From assembly GCA_000010565.1 (NCBI GenBank), contig AP009389.1, forward strand, positions 372,001-436,000: a stretch of 64,000 nt of DNA. Reading direction: 5' to 3'. The DNA is from Pelotomaculum thermopropionicum SI. Its GTDB lineage: Bacteria; Bacillota; Desulfotomaculia; Desulfotomaculales; Pelotomaculaceae. Under the pieces are notes generated by a model, which was given only the letters and a program-made list of their open reading frames with translations, had not been told where the DNA came from and did no database searches. Numbering within the stretch: the stretch's first letter is position 1; each line of letters starts with the position of its first letter. The position numbers and the translations under genes were made by a program. This document shows, piece after piece, positions 34,412-48,027 of this stretch.

Positions 34412-34693
34412 ATGATTTCGACGGTTACCACGGTAACTACTACAACAACCACCACAACCACTGCAAGCACGGTTACTACGGCTACTTCGCTTATGGCCGG
34501 CCTTGGTTTGACGGCTACCATAGCGCTAATTATATTGCTTATTGCCAAGGAACTGGCGGGGGCTGCTGCGGAAGGTTCGCCGCGCGGGCCGGGGGTGGCC
34601 GGCGCCATGGACAGGGTGCTTAACGTGGGCATCATCCCGCTGCTTATGGTGTTTGTTTCAATTGTGTTCGTCAAGGTTATGAGCGTGCTGTAA
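34412..34693 (+). CDS. Thr-rich small membrane protein with two hydrophobic helices
   Basis: A 93-residue protein. The first 27 residues are almost all Thr, Ser, Val and Ala (a run of nine threonines); then a hydrophobic helix (about 28-48, GLTATIALIILLIAKELA), a short Gly/Pro loop and a second helix (about 70-92). AAGGAGGAG lies seven bases before the ATG, so it is a real gene. No family recognised. The Thr-rich front may be exported or modified (inference). It sits between the SLH genes and the DUF1659 cluster. Confidence 0.7.
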   Translation: MISTVTTVTTTTTTTTTASTVTTATSLMAGLGLTATIALIILLIAKELAGAAAEGSPRGPGVAGAMDRVLNVGIIPLLMVFVSIVFVKVMSVL

Positions 34694-34819: not shown

Positions 34820-34940
34820 TTGACAACCCCATTACCATTTTGTTAATATTAGGTACAGAACATATGTTTGGGGGGCAGGGTAAGCGGCAAAGCATTTATA
34901 CCTGCCCCAAAATGTTTTTCCGCTGCCCTCCCCGCAAAAA
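34820..34940 (+). promoter_or_regulatory. Promoter and hairpin leader of the DUF1659-DUF2922-YvrJ group
   Basis: TTGACA at 34820-34825 with a poorly matching -10 (TTAATA/TAATAT) 17-18 bp on. In the leader, GGGGCAGG (34872-34879) pairs with CCTGCCCC (34901-34908), followed by AAAATGTTTTT, a terminator-like arrangement. A later CTGCCCTCCCC could compete for the same left arm. Confidence 0.45.
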
Positions 34941-34982: not shown

Positions 34983-35207
34983 GTGCCGGTAAACAAAATT
35001 CCCGCCGGTTCGGTGCTCAGGCTGGAGCTGCGCGTCGGCGTTGACCAGAGCGGCAACCCGGTCTACCGGAACAGGAGCTTTTCAAACGTTAAGCCGGGCG
35101 CATCCGACCAGGACCTGTTTGATGTTGCCGGTGCCCTGGCCGCCCTGCTGGAATACCCGCTGAACAGCGTGTCCCGCATTGATTCGGCCCATCTGGTGCA
35201 GGCTTAA
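34983..35207 (+). CDS. DUF1659-family small protein
   Basis: A 74-residue protein; GSVLRLELRVGVDQSGNPVY and the following RNRSFSNVKPGASDQDLFDV are the pattern of DUF1659. The family is found almost always beside DUF2922, as here; its function is unknown. The GTG at 34983 follows GGGAGGAGGTG, so it is preferred over an in-frame ATG at 34941. First gene of a three-gene set of very small proteins. Confidence 0.85.
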   Translation: MPVNKIPAGSVLRLELRVGVDQSGNPVYRNRSFSNVKPGASDQDLFDVAGALAALLEYPLNSVSRIDSAHLVQA

Positions 35208-35266
35208 CCGGCCCTGAACCGATCTCAAGCGAGCAAGATTAATTTTAACAGAAAGGAGGGATGAGG

Positions 35267-35500
35267 TTGGCAACCACCGTCCAGAGCCTGCGCATGGTAT
35301 TCCGCAACCAGGCCGGCAGGAACGTCACCATCACCCTGGAAAATCCCAGGGATAACCTGACCGCAGCCGAAATCGAGGCGGCCATGGACCTGATCATCGC
35401 CCGCAATATCTTTACCAGTTCGGGCGGCGACCTCGTGGCCAAGCAGGACATCAGGCTGATCGATACCACTACCAACGACCTCTACGAACCGCCCGCCTAA
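35267..35500 (+). CDS. DUF2922-family small protein
   Basis: A 77-residue protein matching DUF2922 (QSLRMVFRNQAGRNVTITLE, LTAAEIEAAMDLIIARNIF). The TTG at 35267 is seven bases from AAAGGAGGG; the ATG at 35261 lies directly against that site and is less likely. Function unknown; linked to DUF1659 and YvrJ genes in many Firmicutes (family knowledge). Confidence 0.85.
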   Translation: MATTVQSLRMVFRNQAGRNVTITLENPRDNLTAAEIEAAMDLIIARNIFTSSGGDLVAKQDIRLIDTTTNDLYEPPA

Positions 35501-35694
35501 AATCAGGGCGTTGACATAAAGGCCGGCCCCGCCGGCCCCAGACTGAAGACAAACTACTGCTGCTGTTAAAGCACCGGGGAACTTTGTCAACAACCTGAGG
35601 CCGGCCCCGCCGGTCCGCCGGCGGTGCGGCGCCGGACGCAGGCGGTAAAGCAGGCGGCGCCGCATCATTTTACTTTAAGGAAGGAGTGGTTTAA

Positions 35695-35856
35695 CTGGAC
35701 ACTATCCTGCAGGCGGTGGGCGATGTCGGTTTTCCCATGGCCGTGGCCGCTTACCTGCTGGTGCGCCTTGAGGCCAGGCTGGAGTCCCTGGCCGACGGTA
35801 TGGCCGGCCTGGCCGAAGCGGTGGCAGGTGAGCGGCAGCAGGAGGAGAAGAAGTAA
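35695..35856 (+). CDS. YvrJ-family small membrane protein with a probable CTG start
   Basis: A 53-residue protein: a hydrophobic helix DVGFPMAVAAYLLVRLEARL and a charged helical tail ending GERQQEEKK, the YvrJ pattern. The only start that fits the ribosome-binding site GGAAGGAG (35680-35687) is the CTG at 35695, directly preceded by an in-frame TAA. An in-frame GTG at 35716 would remove the first seven residues and has no ribosome-binding site. A broken second copy lies at 36685. Confidence 0.75.
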   Translation: MDTILQAVGDVGFPMAVAAYLLVRLEARLESLADGMAGLAEAVAGERQQEEKK

Positions 35857-35927
35857 AGAAAAGCTTATATGCTCTGACGTGTATGCACTGGCGTGAAGGC
35901 TGCCGGCCCCCCGGCGGCTTTTTTTTA
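35731..35927 (+). repeat. Direct repeat 1 flanking hicAB (yvrJ 3' end plus terminator)
   Basis: From TTTCCCATGG to the T-run, about 197 bp, near-identical to 36679-36875. It covers most of yvrJ and its terminator. hicB and hicA lie between the two copies. Confidence 0.85.
35897..35927 (+). terminator. Terminator after yvrJ
   Basis: GCTGCCGG and CCGGCGGC pair around a C-rich loop and are followed by eight Ts. The T-run touches the 3' end of the convergent hicB gene. Confidence 0.85.
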
Positions 35928-36630: not shown

Positions 36631-36684
36631 GGGTCCAAAAAATTTTCAAAAAAATGTTGTTTTTATGTTTGGCCAGCCTTTCCC

Positions 36685-36804
36685 ATGGCCGTGGCCGCCT
36701 ACCTGCTGGTGCGCCTTGAGGCCAGGCTGGAGTCTCTGGCCGACGGTGTGGCCGGCCTGGCCGAAGCGGTGGCAGGTGAGCGGCGGCAGGAGGAGAAGAA
36801 GTAG
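36685..36804 (+). pseudogene. yvrJ copy lacking its 5' end
   Basis: It reads MAVAAYLLVRLEARLESLAD and ends AGERRQEEKK-stop. The first 13 codons and the ribosome-binding site of the intact copy are missing; upstream DNA belongs to the hicAB promoter side. It is not expected to be translated. Confidence 0.75.
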
Positions 36805-36842
36805 AGAAAAGCTTATATGCACTGACGTGTATGCACTGGCGT

Positions 36843-36875
36843 GAAGGCTGCCGGCTCCCCGGCGGCCTTTTTTTT
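36843..36875 (+). terminator. Terminator copy 2
   Basis: The same stem as at 35897-35927 (GCTGCCGG/CCGGCGGC with small changes) followed by eight Ts. It isolates the merR operon from upstream transcription. Confidence 0.8.
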
Positions 36876-38386: not shown

Positions 38387-38653
38387 TCAGGCGGGGGCGG
38401 GCTGCGGCCGGGCCCGGGCCTTTTTCTTCTTTTTGGCCGGCTTTGGCGGGGAGGTAAGCTGCGGGTCCGTTTCCCACCAGTTGATGCCCATTTCTTTGGC
38501 TTTGTCCACAGAGGCAATTAAAAGCCTTATTTTTATGCTTAAAAGCTCCACGTCGGCCAGGGAAATTTTTATGTCGCCGGCTATGACCAGCCCCTTGTCG
38601 AGCACCCTTTCCAGAATCTCGGCTATGTTCGTGCTTTTTACCGATTGCTGCAC
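38387..38653 (-). CDS. gvpJ: Gas vesicle protein GvpJ (GvpA family)
   Basis: An 88-residue member of the GvpA/J/M fold: IAEILERVLDKGLVIAGDIK, then ISLADVELLSIKIRLLIASV, followed by a lysine/proline-rich tail that GvpA lacks. Such minor GvpA-like proteins are thought to sit at the vesicle tip or to nucleate assembly. The GTG has GAGGAGG upstream. It is the last gene of the cluster in transcription order. The GvpJ versus GvpS/M label is uncertain. Confidence 0.85.
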   Translation of the reverse strand: MQQSVKSTNIAEILERVLDKGLVIAGDIKISLADVELLSIKIRLLIASVDKAKEMGINWWETDPQLTSPPKPAKKKKKARARPQPAPA

Positions 38654-38666
38654 TTTTCCGGCCTCC

Positions 38667-39008
38667 TCACATCAGGTCGCCCAGGGGTCCGAGGTTCAGG
38701 TTCAGCTCTTCCCCTTCCAGGCCGAACGCCTTTTTCAGTTCTTCCATCTTGTTTTCCAGTTTCATGAAGGTAATGCCCATCCGGTCTATTTCCTCGCTGC
38801 TCAGGCCGCCCCGGTCGATGCGGCGGATGGCCTGTTTTTCTAAAAGCCGGATCAGCAGTTGAATGATCGTCAGGACCAGCTTTGCCAGCCCCTGCTCCAC
38901 TTTGTCCGGATCGGCGCCGACCCGGTCCGGCAAGGCCCTGCCGGCCTGTTCCATCTCGTCCCGGAAATCTTCCACGGCCTCCGGGTCAACGCAAGCCTTG
39001 CTCAGCAA
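38667..39008 (-). CDS. gvpK: Gas vesicle protein GvpK
   Basis: A 113-residue helical protein with the GvpK core: VEQGLAKLVLTIIQLLIRLL, EKQAIRRIDRGGLSSEEIDR and the ending LNLNLGPLGDL. GvpK is required for vesicle formation and is thought to act in the minor assembly complex. The TTG at 39008 fits AGAAGGTGG; an in-frame GTG at 39017 overlaps that site. It overlaps the preceding gvpF/L gene by 23 bases and ends 13 bp before gvpJ. Confidence 0.9.
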   Translation of the reverse strand: MLSKACVDPEAVEDFRDEMEQAGRALPDRVGADPDKVEQGLAKLVLTIIQLLIRLLEKQAIRRIDRGGLSSEEIDRMGITFMKLENKMEELKKAFGLEGEELNLNLGPLGDLM

Positions 39009-39717
39009 AATTACCACCTTCTGTAATTTTAATAAAGCTGTAAGGCGGCCAGGGGCCGCTCAAAAGAAACTTCAGGCTGCGGTTTGCCGACCTGCAGAGT
39101 TGAAATGCCTCTTTAAAATTTTCCAGCCTGTTTTTTTTGACCAGGTAGGCCGCGGTGAAGAAAAGCCGCCGGGTGGGGGAAAGCTTGCAGGTAAAGTCTT
39201 CGGCGCAGTCCGCCAGGTGTTTTTGTATCCCCGCGGCCGCTTCGCGGGCGCTTGCCGCCAGAAAGTCGATCAATTCCATATCTTTCCGCTTGCCCTCCAG
39301 AAAAGCGCAGCCGGGCCGGTCCGGGCCAGGCCCGAAGCCTTTTGGGCTTTGCGGGCGGAACCTCGCTTTAACGCCGTCGAGGTCCCAGATGGCTTTAAGG
39401 CCCATCTCTACGCAGTTTTCCAGCCTGCCCAGATGCTGCTTGAACTGTTTGTAATACCCGGCCAGCATCTCCGCCACGCTTTGCTCGCTCTTTAAAACCG
39501 TGCCGAACCTCATCGGCAGGATTGTTGTATGCGCCATTGCCGCTTCAACTACCTGCTCATGGGCAAGATAGTTTTCTTCGCCGGGAAGCCACTGCCCGCC
39601 GGCGGCCTCCGAAACCACCGCCCCGATGTCCCTGTACGGCACCAGGTACACTTTCCGGCCGGCCGCCGCGGCGGTTTGAAAGGGGTGCAAAGGCACAATG
39701 CCGTAAACGTAAATCAA
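38986..39717 (-). CDS. gvpF: Gas vesicle protein GvpF/GvpL family (copy 1)
   Basis: A 243-residue protein. The N-terminal domain starts LIYVYGIVP and includes the ILPMRFGTVL region; the C-terminal domain ends FLLSGPWPPYSFI, the family hallmark. GvpF/L proteins bind GvpA and help start assembly. The TTG at 39717 has GGAAGGAG upstream and overlaps the previous stop (TTGA). The third GvpF/L-type protein of the cluster. Confidence 0.88.
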   Translation of the reverse strand: MIYVYGIVPLHPFQTAAAAGRKVYLVPYRDIGAVVSEAAGGQWLPGEENYLAHEQVVEAAMAHTTILPMRFGTVLKSEQSVAEMLAGYYKQFKQHLGRLENCVEMGLKAIWDLDGVKARFRPQSPKGFGPGPDRPGCAFLEGKRKDMELIDFLAASAREAAAGIQKHLADCAEDFTCKLSPTRRLFFTAAYLVKKNRLENFKEAFQLCRSANRSLKFLLSGPWPPYSFIKITEGGNFAEQGLR

Positions 39718-39908
39718 GAGAATTCTCCTTCCCTGAAGGCGGGCCTGATCGTGTCGATGGAGCCGAGCACAAGCCTGAGGCCCAGGTAGATCAGGTCCAC
39801 TTCCGCCACGGAGATGATGATATCCCCGCTGATTACCACTCCTTTGCCCAGGATGCGGTCGAGAAGCTCCAGCAGGGTGAGGTTTTCCAAGCTGGATGCC
39901 TGGTTCAA
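39714..39908 (-). CDS. GvpA-family minor gas vesicle protein (GvpM/S-like)
   Basis: A 64-residue GvpA-fold protein (LLELLDRILGKGVVISGDII, ISVAEVDLIYLGLRLVLGSI) with no tail. Differences from GvpA (SGDIIISVAEVD in place of [12 protein letters not shown]) place it among the GvpM/GvpS-type minor proteins. The TTG start has AAGGAG nine bases upstream and overlaps the previous stop by four bases, as does the next gene: tight translational coupling. Confidence 0.82.
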   Translation of the reverse strand: MNQASSLENLTLLELLDRILGKGVVISGDIIISVAEVDLIYLGLRLVLGSIDTIRPAFREGEFS

Positions 39909-41182
39909 GCTTCAGCACTCCTTTCGGGAGGGAGGCAGAAATTGTACGGCGGCCACCGGCCGGTAAGGGCGAACTCAAAGCCGCAGGGGCGGTATTTTTG
40001 TTCCAGGGCGGCGGCCGTTTCCTTGAACTCTTCAAGCCTGGCCTGGCTGACGAGGTAGGCGCCGTTTAAAACCATTTCCTCGCTCTTCCCGGTAATTTCC
40101 CTGTCGAGCAGCTTGTTTTCCGCCGACAGCACCGCTATTTGCGACAGGGCCTGGTGGCATTCCGCGGCGCAGCGCCGGGCTGCCTGCCCGGTCTCCTCTT
40201 CGATGAGGCCGTCTATTTTTTTCTTTAAGAAGTAGGCCGCGCCTGCGGGCTGCGGACCGGCTCCGGCCTTCATTTTCCTTATGTTTTCGCTTTGCTCTGC
40301 CACCAGCTTTTTCAGCACGGGCCGGTTGCAGTAGACTTTCAGCCCCCACTCCTCCTTGTCTTTCAGAAAGTCCAGCACCTGGCGCAGCTCTTTTTCCCTT
40401 TCCTGCAGCATGTCCAGCACCTTCTCCGCGGAGGAAAAGACGGTGCAGAACTTCATCGGTACGACCGGGTTGTTTTCCATCACCTTTTCGATGACATTTT
40501 CATGCGCTTCTACGGCCGCCTGCAGCCAGGCGGCGTCCTGCAGCCGCCTTTCTAAGGCCTCCTGGCTGAACTCCGCCAGGGATACCGTGCTTGCAAATGC
40601 GCACAGGGATTGGTGGACCAGGGGAAAGATCTCCCCGTTTCCGTCAACTCCGCAGACGCCGGGGGACAGTTTCTCCGCCCCGGCATTGGTGATGCAGTAA
40701 AGGTAAACGCCGTAGGCCTTCTGTGGCGGCGGGCCGTCCTGCGGTTCCGGGCCGGGGGCGCTGCCGGGACCGCCCTCCGGGCGGCGGGCAGGGGTGGGCG
40801 CTGCTGCCGGTGCCTCTTTGCAAATGCTTTTGCCTTTTGCAGCGGGGCCGGGCGGGGCATTTTCAGGCGCCTGGTTCCGTCTGCTGCTCCTGCCCTTGCC
40901 CTTTGCGGGCGGGACGGGCCGGCCGGTCCTGGCCGCAAGGCCCTGACCGCTGCGCCTGCCGGCGGTTTTTGCGGGCCGGGCCTTTTTCCCGGCGGGGTTT
41001 TTCTCTTGCATGAACTTGCGCAGCTCATCCTCCAGCACCTCCCGGAGAAGGGATTTCACATCGTTTTTAAAGCCGGCAACAGCTTCGTCCCAGATTTCCC
41101 CCAACAGGGCGGGCAGGAGGCGGCCGGCCTTTTCCCTGAAGGCCTCCCGCAGAAGATTCAAGAAAAGCTCCCTGTCCTTCAA
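39905..41182 (-). CDS. gvpL: GvpL/F-family protein with long N-terminal extension
   Basis: A 425-residue protein. Residues 1-60 are helical and acidic (REAFREKAGRLLPALLGEIW, LEDELRKFMQEK); 61-155 are a lysine/proline/alanine-rich linker; 156-425 are a normal GvpL/F domain beginning YGVYLYCIT and ending FALTGRWPPYNF. The extension makes it far longer than the usual 230-280 residues. It may tether the assembly factor to another partner (inference). Overlaps the following gene by four bases. Confidence 0.87.
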   Translation of the reverse strand: MKDRELFLNLLREAFREKAGRLLPALLGEIWDEAVAGFKNDVKSLLREVLEDELRKFMQEKNPAGKKARPAKTAGRRSGQGLAARTGRPVPPAKGKGRSSRRNQAPENAPPGPAAKGKSICKEAPAAAPTPARRPEGGPGSAPGPEPQDGPPPQKAYGVYLYCITNAGAEKLSPGVCGVDGNGEIFPLVHQSLCAFASTVSLAEFSQEALERRLQDAAWLQAAVEAHENVIEKVMENNPVVPMKFCTVFSSAEKVLDMLQEREKELRQVLDFLKDKEEWGLKVYCNRPVLKKLVAEQSENIRKMKAGAGPQPAGAAYFLKKKIDGLIEEETGQAARRCAAECHQALSQIAVLSAENKLLDREITGKSEEMVLNGAYLVSQARLEEFKETAAALEQKYRPCGFEFALTGRWPPYNFCLPPERSAEA

Positions 41183-41183
41183 G

Positions 41184-41444
41184 TCATTCCTCCTCGGCTT
41201 CTTCTTCCGCCCGGCTTGCTTTTATTTCCCGCGCCAGGCGCAGGCGGTCGAGCAGTTTTTCTTCGATGCGCCCGTACTCCTCCTGGTCTATCTCGCCCGA
41301 ATCGAGCAGGTGCTGCGCTTCCAGCAGTTGGCGGGCAATGGCCTGCTCGTCGGTCAGCTCGGCCTCGGCGTGCTTGTAAATTTCCCTGGCGACGAAAAGC
41401 AAGAAGCGCAGGGGCGACATAAACAAATCGTCTACAATGAACAT
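41184..41444 (-). CDS. gvpG: Gas vesicle protein GvpG
   Basis: An 86-residue helical protein: FIVDDLFMSPLRFLLFVARE at the front, then LLEAQHLLDSGEIDQEEYGR and an acidic tail, the GvpG pattern. GvpG works with GvpF/L in early assembly. It ends one base before the gvpL start. The ribosome-binding site is weak, consistent with coupling to the upstream gene. Confidence 0.9.
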   Translation of the reverse strand: MFIVDDLFMSPLRFLLFVAREIYKHAEAELTDEQAIARQLLEAQHLLDSGEIDQEEYGRIEEKLLDRLRLAREIKASRAEEEAEEE

Positions 41445-41450
41445 GTTTGC

Positions 41451-42217
41451 TTACCTGCTTCTGGTAAGATTTATGCGGATGTTCACAAAATTGTAAGGCG
41501 GCCAGGGCCCGGTGTATTTTATTGCCAGGGCGTCTTTATACTTCTGGTGGAACTCCTCCACTTTCAGGTCGAATTCGCTTAACTTTTCCCTGGCCGTCAG
41601 AAAGACGGCGTGCAGCACCATTCTGGGCGTGACGATCTCTTTCTTTAAGGATGAATCGGCAATATCTTGCAGAGGGTCGTATATTTCCTTATGATAAAAG
41701 TTTCTCCTCTCTTCGGCCGCAGCCTCGACCATCCTGCCCAGGCTGATTTTGTCGAAATAGACGGCGGCCTCTTCCTTTCCGGAAAGGGCCTCGCCCATCT
41801 CAGCAATGGCGCCGTTAACTTCGGTTATTTCCTTCTTGAAGGCTTCTTTCTTCCAGTAAATTTTCAGGTCCAGCTCGACTTTGCCTTTAATTCTGGCCAT
41901 TGCGCTCTTAAACCGGGCGTAATCCCTTTTCATCAAGCTGACGATTTCCCCCGCGCTTTCTGCAACTATTCCGAAGCTCATGGGCATAATGTCGAACTCT
42001 TCCATTACCGCCGAGATGACTTTCTGGTGGGCCATGACGTTTTCTTTGACCGGGTCGAAAGTGACGGCGGGCGTGCTGCTGACCACCATCGCCAGGTCCC
42101 GGTAGTTGATGGTGTGCACCTGGTCGCCCCGCCCCCCGATGCCTATCGGGCCGAAATTTTTCTCTCGCCGGTCTCGATGAGGCCGTAAAGGTATTTACCC
42201 TCTTTTGCTTTTTTCAA
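41451..42217 (-). pseudogene. gvpF: GvpF-family gene with a one-base deletion near the 5' end
   Basis: The TTG at 42217 opens [20 protein letters not shown], a proper GvpF N-terminus, but the frame is lost in an A5 run (T5 at 42157-42161 on the plus strand). With six As it would continue NFGPIGIGGRGDQVHTINYR and join the long frame to 41451, ending KYTGPWPPYNFVNIR. The intact protein would be 255 residues. The downstream frame is well preserved, so error, recent mutation or frameshifting are possible. It overlaps the AAA ATPase gene by 23 bases. Confidence 0.8.
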
Positions 42218-47258: not shown

Positions 47259-47325
47259 AAACTGCCGCCAAGGCACATAATATAATTATATATTTATGGT
47301 AATTTTCGGCTGGGAGGGCGGTTTC

Positions 47326-48027
47326 ATGCTAAAACTGGTGCTTGACCCGGGCCACGGGGGAATTGATGCCGGAGCCGTCGGAAACGGCATAAAAGAAAAG
47401 GATCTGAACCTTGAGCTTTGCAGGCGGATAGCAGGTAAGCTGGAGGGTTATGATGTGGAAGTAACCCTGACCAGGACCGCCGACGCGGACGTGGATGTTT
47501 ACCGCCGCTGCGAGCTCGCCAACAGCCTTAAGGCCGACTATTTCTGCTCCGTTCACGCCAATTCCGGCGGCGGAACCGGCTTTGAGAGCTACGTATACAC
47601 TCACGCCGGGGAGATAACCGAAAGCCTGCGCGGCGTTGTGCACGAAAAAGTGGCCGCTTACTTCAAAAGCGCCGGCTTTCCGGACAGGGGCAAAAAGCGG
47701 GCCAACTTTGTCGTCCTGCGGGAAACCGGCATGCCGGCCGTCCTGCTGGAGAACCTTTTCCTGGACAGCCCGAGGGACGCTGTCAGGCTTAAAGACTCCT
47801 CTTTTCTGGACGGGCTGGCCGCCGCCGTAGCGGGCGGGCTGGTGGCCGCCCTGGGAATACCCGTGAAAGAGCAGGCGCCGCCGCCCCTGCCGTGGGATCC
47901 TGCCGCGGAAATAGCCAGGCTGAAGGCGGACGGCCTGATCAACAGCGACCACCGGCCGGAGGACCCGGTTATGTGGGGGGAACTGGCAACCGTGCTCAAC
48001 CGCATAATATCATTTCGCCGGCCTTAA
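47326..48027 (+). CDS. N-acetylmuramoyl-L-alanine amidase (Amidase_3)
   Basis: A 233-residue zinc amidase that cuts between muramic acid and the stem peptide. Zinc ligands H10 (LDPGHGG), E24 and H77 (SVHANS), and catalytic E142 (LLENLFLD) are all present. A short C-terminal segment (ARLKADGLINSDHRP, VMWGELATVLNRI) resembles the tail found on phage- and sporulation-type amidases. No signal peptide, so it is used in lysis, in the spore mother cell or is released otherwise. ATG at 47326 with GGGAGGG upstream. Confidence 0.92.
   Translation: MLKLVLDPGHGGIDAGAVGNGIKEKDLNLELCRRIAGKLEGYDVEVTLTRTADADVDVYRRCELANSLKADYFCSVHANSGGGTGFESYVYTHAGEITESLRGVVHEKVAAYFKSAGFPDRGKKRANFVVLRETGMPAVLLENLFLDSPRDAVRLKDSSFLDGLAAAVAGGLVAALGIPVKEQAPPPLPWDPAAEIARLKADGLINSDHRPEDPVMWGELATVLNRIISFRRP

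Follow-up and report, generated by a model that had tools for sequence, protein, structure and literature searches.

What do three very small genes of the DUF1659, DUF2922 and YvrJ families, which lack a functional annotation in roughly half of the Bacillota genomes sampled, do for the cells that carry them? In Pelotomaculum thermopropionicum SI the three genes form a triad (A, B and Y, in that order), and a preliminary description drawn from the letters of the DNA had regarded them as a widespread set of no known function that, with surface-protein genes upstream, might form an envelope or sporulation system. We analyzed the triad in the 64,000-nucleotide stretch of DNA that contains it, referred to here as the window, and in related loci and genomes. 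The best explanation we can offer, held tentatively and at somewhat less than an even chance, is that the triad is a stress-switched holin-type membrane module with A and B as its control pair. The features of the locus are:

34820-34849, plus strand: predicted triad promoter, TTGACA, 18 nt, TAATAT; sigma-A type with 10/12 matches, kept in Pelotomaculum leaders
34857-34870, plus strand: LexA/DinR-type box AGAACATATGTTTG, just 3' of the -10 element and in the same place in relatives
34870-34933, plus strand: putative leader RNA switch; proximal stem 34872-34879 / 34901-34908, or a long hairpin 34870-34933 that excludes the proximal stem
34983-35207, plus strand: DUF1659 (A), 74 aa, GTG start; PF07872 E 2e-25, 88.9 bits against a cut-off of 24.1
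35267-35500, plus strand: DUF2922 (B), 77 aa, TTG start; PF11148 E 1.6e-26, 92.5 bits against a cut-off of 25.5
35695-35856, plus strand: YvrJ (Y), 53 aa, CTG start; PF12841 E 3.7e-14, 52.4 bits against a cut-off of 29.5
35895-35922, plus strand: intrinsic terminator after yvrJ, strong

The genes lie head to tail and all three products exceed the curated Pfam cut-offs by profile match. Each gene has a GGAGG-type ribosome-binding site in front of it, and the YvrJ sequence contains a single short hydrophobic helix followed by a charged tail. The very small reading frames, the strong ribosome-binding sites and the membrane helix in one of the proteins had all been described before and were borne out here, with corrected start codons. 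Translation of B most likely begins at TTG 35267, the alternative ATG at 35261 being too near the GGAGG. The yvrJ CTG at 35695 lies directly behind an in-frame TAA; lists of reading frames limited to ATG, GTG and TTG place the yvrJ start at 35716 and drop seven residues.

Structure models predict a beta-beta-alpha-beta arrangement for both A (pLDDT 94.6) and B (pLDDT 89.6). That the two are paralogues was considered and rejected on profile comparison (hhalign Prob 0.3), although the predicted order of elements is identical. By sequence, no solved relative of A or B was found with better than E 0.14, and Foldseek searches with the two models returned no match at E 0.001 or better and no clear structural relative. 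In a second look, the best fold match to both was phi29 p6 (A: Z 5.6 and 3.5 A with 64 aligned; B: Z 4.8 and 3.3 A with 65 aligned), matches that fall in the range of common arrangements and may serve as a lead only. Both proteins are acidic, with a median pI of 4.8 for A and 4.6 for B, and plain nucleic-acid binding by them is disfavored because of this acidic pI. The triad had no match among the anti-phage defense systems of PADLOC, and the one Rfam match near it, to BTH_s1 (E 0.04; 23.4 bits, the gathering score being 74), was taken as chance.

The triad is predicted to be a transcription unit of its own because it has its own promoter and terminator, and because hairpins, one of them terminator-like by pattern scan, separate the Thr-rich reading frame upstream from the triad promoter. 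This Thr-rich membrane ORF (34412-34693, 93 residues) has a good ribosome-binding site and no relative, with 0 matches in the fetched loci. Some Pelotomaculum loci have SLH proteins nearby, in positions that vary from locus to locus. Given the separate triad promoter, the lack of Thr-rich relatives and the variable SLH position, we set the surface-protein neighborhood aside, and the upstream SLH and Thr-rich genes look incidental to the triad. The reported placement of the triad behind two SLH genes and a Thr-rich one is accurate as gene order and does not hold as part of a system.

An alignment of the regions upstream of A in the window and ten related loci contains the conserved promoter and then a palindrome, which reads AGAACATATGTTTG in the window and GAACAAATGTTC or GAACATACGTTC in relatives. 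The B. subtilis LexA site consensus is reported as CGAACN4GTTCG (PMC9578287, PMC4551915), and the window box fits it at 12/13 informative positions. Operators of the Bacillota LexA (SOS) regulon are CGAACN4GTTCG-like sites at promoters, and AGAACATATGTTTG is a site of this kind. When the 64-kb window was searched with the pattern MGAACRNRYGTTYG, the box at 34857-34870 was the sole match, with 0.05 expected. Eleven of the 12 Pelotomaculum-like loci (L096-L107) have the box at 11 or 12 of 13 positions, including L105, where it is kept although the rest of the upstream region is unlike that of the other loci; L096 is without it (8/13). Across the phylum sample described below, a box of at least 12/13 lies upstream of A in 3/73 loci compared with 28/3739 control windows (0.7%, p 0.02), and a looser eight-base core is found in 14/135 upstream regions, close relatives included, compared with 0.83% of 6234 control windows. 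LexA probably binds the box, and DNA damage probably switches the triad on.

The leader that follows has two mutually exclusive stems, both of which can form in 10/10 aligned leaders (the window and nine relatives), so the two competing hairpins noted earlier in the window were correctly recognized and are conserved. This set of ten was derived from the eleven upstream sequences by removing L096, which has no such element, and L104, a near copy of L102, and adding L101. In the proximal stem (GGGGCAGG/CCTGCCCC) pairing is kept in 98.8% of 80 alignment cells, well above slid controls, and there are two compensatory double changes. The long hairpin is the minimum-energy form in 8/10 leaders when these are folded without the box; in the ten leaders, forced energies range from -20 to -27.5 kcal/mol for the proximal form and from -22.6 to -32.7 kcal/mol for the long form. 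The proximal repeat could alternatively be a DNA operator instead of an RNA stem.

The distribution of the three families was surveyed in 149 Bacillota genomes with a completeness floor of 90%. A and B each occur in 79 of these genomes, and the 79 are identical; YvrJ is present in 64 of the A/B genomes and in six of the 70 others, 70 in total. Among 41 relatives, A was found in 32, B in 32 and YvrJ in 31, and among 14 control genomes A and B were present in Thermotoga maritima and YvrJ in Bacillus subtilis. Spacing was measured at a single locus per genome, 73 in all from the phylum sample; the remaining six of the 79 were unfetched or counted once. A and B share a strand at every one of these 73 loci, with an A-to-B gap below 300 bp in 72/73 and a median gap of 41, and Y follows B within 1 kb in 54/73. 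Because A and B share the identical 79 genomes and lie this close together, the triad is not a chance association. Sixteen of the 73 loci have no Y on the stretch; for some of these Y is on another contig or the contig end is reached. In G046, G078 and G117, A-B and Y-ComK sit at separate places with each half intact. A and B are thus inseparable, while YvrJ is separable. Independent distribution of the three families, named earlier as the outcome that would speak against a shared system, is contradicted for A and B and applies in part to YvrJ; the triad itself is a conserved and widespread unit, as had been proposed.

Two loci (L108 and L090) have tandem A-B-A-B arrays ahead of a single Y. 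A search of 72,556 records located B on one Peribacillus plasmid and on 18 plasmids from the thermophiles Geobacillus, Parageobacillus and [Bacillus] caldolyticus.

Genes around the triad were clustered in 80 fetched stretches. Gene calls were simple longest ORFs, among which false genes are possible, and the profiles used to count hydrolases, sigma factors and ComK were built from the neighbors themselves and Pfam-checked on representatives, so that the counts favor first-seen families. A peptidoglycan hydrolase (Amidase_2, Amidase_3 or M15) occupies the +1 position in 20/72 loci, compared with 3/486 genes at least five places off (Fisher p 2e-16, kinship ignored). Among relatives of the window, L096 and L105 have an M15 peptidase after Y and L106 has an Amidase_3 before A. 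No hydrolase adjoins the triad in the window; the closest that we detected there is an Amidase_3 gene that lies 11 kb off, at 47296-48027.

Regulators are the other recurrent neighbors. The neighbor cluster with most members, from 34 loci, consists of 200-residue proteins with a weak Pfam match to ComK (5/27 members at E 0.01); a ComK-like protein from a Geobacillus plasmid gives Pfam ComK at 3.9e-7. Because the Pfam identity alone is weak, the ComK-like profile, minus two Geobacillus rows, was compared with 14 Bacilli ComK by hhalign, giving Prob 96.9 and E 1.7e-10 over 159 columns with a reversed control of 0.4. A ComK-like gene stands at +1 or +2 in 24 loci and, genome-wide, is found in 66/79 A/B genomes compared with 1/70 others (Fisher p 9e-28, kinship ignored). 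In the lone genome of the latter kind (G171), YvrJ adjoins the ComK-like gene 241 bp from a contig end, which may have cut off A and B. The ComK-like gene is absent from the window genome (G000) and from 25/25 genomes of its family, 20 of them with A/B. A sigma factor stands at -1 in 9/71 loci. In L001 the gene after Y encodes a protein with a LexA DNA-binding domain, and in L058 A has a divergent S24 repressor beside it. On plasmids of Geobacillus and Parageobacillus, A, B and Y are accompanied by a ComK-like gene and an M15 peptidase, and on those of Paraclostridium there is a Mor-type activator (annotated in L009, L010 and L014; Pfam-confirmed on L014), with an amidase nearby on the opposite strand in two of the Paraclostridium loci. 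About ten loci (L042, L047, L049, L050, L052, L056, L059, L070, L072 and L081) have a gene for a double zinc ribbon and phosphoribosyltransferase a few genes 3' of the triad. We take this gene to be ComF-like, a hint of a further link to competence.

The position after B is not always held by YvrJ. In three YvrJ-less loci a Phage_holin_4_1 gene lies directly after B (L032, E 9e-40; L084, 6e-10; L086, 3e-10), and a weaker match, to phrog_13712 "holin" (E 2e-4), comes from a 156-residue protein encoded two genes further along in L047. Where YvrJ is missing from L042 and L047, a 68-residue protein with a coiled coil and a membrane helix is encoded right after B (L042:7529-7738; L047:7493-7702), possibly a further holin-type protein. 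All of 33 YvrJ members match PF12841 and 0/33 match PF10960 (BhlA/UviB), the only other holin-related match among the 33 being one to XhlA at E 0.07. YvrJ as a BhlA holin was rejected, there being no homology between the two (hhalign Prob 11 over 8 columns compared with 14.9 for the reversed control). Mainly because phage holins replace YvrJ in its slot and hydrolases adjoin, we infer by analogy that YvrJ is holin-like and would permeabilize the membrane. With phage holins standing in for YvrJ at three loci and hydrolases at +1, the envelope half of the role proposed earlier is likely; the sporulation half is not supported, no sporulation-specific neighbor having been found around the triad.

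A and B are related to a described pair of genes. Window A scores 13.9 bits with the NCBIfam SroA model NF049869, whose cut-off is 80, and is a member of the family and not an SroA equivalog. In 249 Bacilli genomes the model gave 18 matches, all within one family. In ten fetched SroA-model loci the A- and B-type profiles match two adjacent genes; the three SroA-model proteins scanned all score above the DUF1659 cut-off, and their three neighbors above that of DUF2922. At the family level, and judged by these profiles, the SroA-model proteins are DUF1659 proteins and their neighbors DUF2922 proteins, and the operon order suggests that the neighbor is SroB. The S. aureus sroA primers of PMC13192611 had no match in the fetched loci, and the identification of sroAB rests on the NF049869 model. 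S. aureus sroAB is reported to be controlled directly by SigS, a sigma factor that responds to DNA damage, with SroA raising sigS mRNA, SroB opposing this effect and SroA overexpression altering about 200 transcripts (PMC13192611). Like the triad, S. aureus sroAB has a DUF1659 gene directly followed by a DUF2922 gene under a stress-responsive regulator (same source); unlike the triad, the SroA-model loci have no YvrJ within the 3.2-kb fetched loci. The label "no known function" thus no longer quite fits the triad, since the A and B families correspond to the SigS-controlled sroAB pair. In the available parts of the literature on DUF1659, DUF2922 and YvrJ, on ComK and holins, on SroA and sroAB, and on Pelotomaculum LexA, no description of the triad was found.

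The transcription unit, the box, the alternative stems, the neighbor enrichments and the SroA/SroB family identity are results at the level of computation, and the preferred reading of a stress-switched holin-type module would join them as follows. Because the LexA-type operator overlaps the transcription start in the clade of the window, DNA damage would be expected to derepress the triad. The leader RNA, flipping between its two hairpins, would probably set whether or when translation starts. Once produced, YvrJ would act as a minimal holin-like peptide that alters the cytoplasmic membrane, and in many relatives it would let through or activate the peptidoglycan hydrolase encoded by the next gene; the window genome would presumably use a hydrolase encoded elsewhere in the genome. 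The envelope would open in a few cells, with release of DNA or protein or self-limiting lysis. By analogy with the action of SroA and SroB on sigS, the obligatory small soluble A-B pair would most likely control the circuit, by setting its pace or by feedback. The regulator would be swapped between clades, LexA here and a ComK relative, a sigma factor, a CI/LexA-type repressor or Mor elsewhere.

Several known systems resemble the triad in part. In the tisB-like, LexA-controlled type I toxins, a LexA box at the start site precedes a long folded leader and a small membrane peptide. The triad likewise has a LexA-type box at the start, a folded leader and a small membrane peptide, but its leader precedes the gene of a soluble protein. 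Type 10 secretion and holin-endolysin cassettes combine a holin-type slot, a peptidoglycan hydrolase and a dedicated regulator, as do relatives of the triad; the triad differs in that a hydrolase adjoins about three in ten loci and none in the window, and no cargo was identified. UviA, UviB and BCN5 of C. perfringens are induced by UV. The BCN5 locus, as far as the source covers it, joins a sigma factor (UviA), a very small single-helix BhlA-family holin (UviB) and an amidase, on plasmids too (PMC9527704), whereas the triad has in YvrJ no BhlA/UviB homologue and includes two conserved soluble proteins and no bacteriocin. B. subtilis yvrJ is reported to have a dedicated sigma factor, as a member of the SigO-RsoA regulon (PMC8103513); unlike the triad loci, the B. 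subtilis control genome has YvrJ only, without DUF1659 or DUF2922.

Part of the evidence stands against a holin-type module. The window genome has neither a ComK-like gene nor an adjacent hydrolase, YvrJ has no holin homology, SroA is reported to act on transcript levels and not on the envelope, a good LexA box is present in 3/73 phylum loci only, and A and B are acidic proteins without a clear fold relative. The strongest rival is a purely regulatory module without a pore, in which A and B would act on RNA or RNA polymerase in the manner of SroA/SroB and YvrJ would anchor a sigma factor or ComK at the membrane or serve as its adaptor there; we consider it rather unlikely. In its favor, SroA is reported to promote sigS mRNA accumulation, with about 200 transcripts shifted on overexpression (PMC13192611), and the ComK-like gene accompanies 66/79 A/B genomes. 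YvrJ remains beside ComK where A-B sit elsewhere (G046, G078 and G117), the lone YvrJ of L091 is flanked by HTH_16 and sigma region 4 genes that we read as RsoA/SigO-like, and B. subtilis yvrJ is listed as a SigO-RsoA-transcribed operon in the portion of PMC8103513 available to us. A purely regulatory module leaves unexplained, however, both the hydrolases at +1 (20/72) and the phage holins in the YvrJ slot.

The triad might instead be a domesticated phage or plasmid lysis block, maintained as a remnant of addiction or bacteriocin release, in which A and B have no cellular role. A and B match PHROG families 20302 (E 6e-11) and 21372 (E 6e-12), copies lie on plasmids of Geobacillus, Parageobacillus, Paraclostridium and others, L108 and L090 have tandem copies, and a plasmid yvrJ-yoqJ pair is labelled a toxin-antitoxin in the available part of PMC13269093. 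A phage or viral origin was rejected when tblastn of A and B against 50,697 phage records and a scan of viral contigs, which yielded 20 stretches, returned no relative. The co-occurrence of A and B in 79/79 genomes, and in many chromosomes, also speaks against a remnant, and varied holin-like genes beside the same A-B pair look like a maintained function; we regard this explanation as improbable. The envelope or sporulation system with SLH and Thr-rich proteins that was proposed for the window is very improbable. The gene order in the window favors it, but the triad is served by a separate promoter with a LexA-type box, relatives of the Thr-rich ORF are absent from the fetched loci, the SLH genes are not fixed in place, and A and B also occur in Thermotoga maritima and the SroA-model family. 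To our knowledge these two are non-sporulating. The only link to sporulation is a correlation of DUF1659 with endospore formers, as reported in the part of PMC2955703 available to us.

The triad may be one form of a widespread and unrecognized envelope-opening module, made of an inseparable A-B pair (SroA/SroB), an exchangeable holin slot (YvrJ or phage-type) and an exchangeable wall hydrolase, under LexA, ComK, sigma-factor, CI-type or Mor control in different lineages. We entertain this broader possibility without expecting it. If true, it would tie damage to DNA, or decisions of the competence type, to a controlled lysis or release by some cells of the population. The links to SroA/SroB, to LexA- and ComK-type control and to holin and hydrolase genes provide a first testable function for the triad, suggest that a stress-triggered device for release or lysis is common outside prophages, and would set the reported effects of S. 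aureus SroA within a far larger family.

The 3' end of the triad is duplicated further along the window:

35731-35926, plus strand: 196-nt direct repeat, copy 1, covering the 3' part of yvrJ and the terminator
36679-36874, plus strand: 196-nt direct repeat, copy 2, 96% identical, beyond a HicB/HicA-like insert
36685-36804, plus strand: truncated second YvrJ copy, 39 aa; PF12841 E 4.5e-8

The repeat flanks a HicB gene and a broken HicA-like frame, and a HicB with 73% identity is also found near the triad in the relatives L008 and L103. The bacterium is not generally considered a floating organism; the window contains gas vesicle genes at 38390-42119 on the minus strand, with two GvpA-type genes, GvpK, GvpG and three GvpL/GvpF genes.
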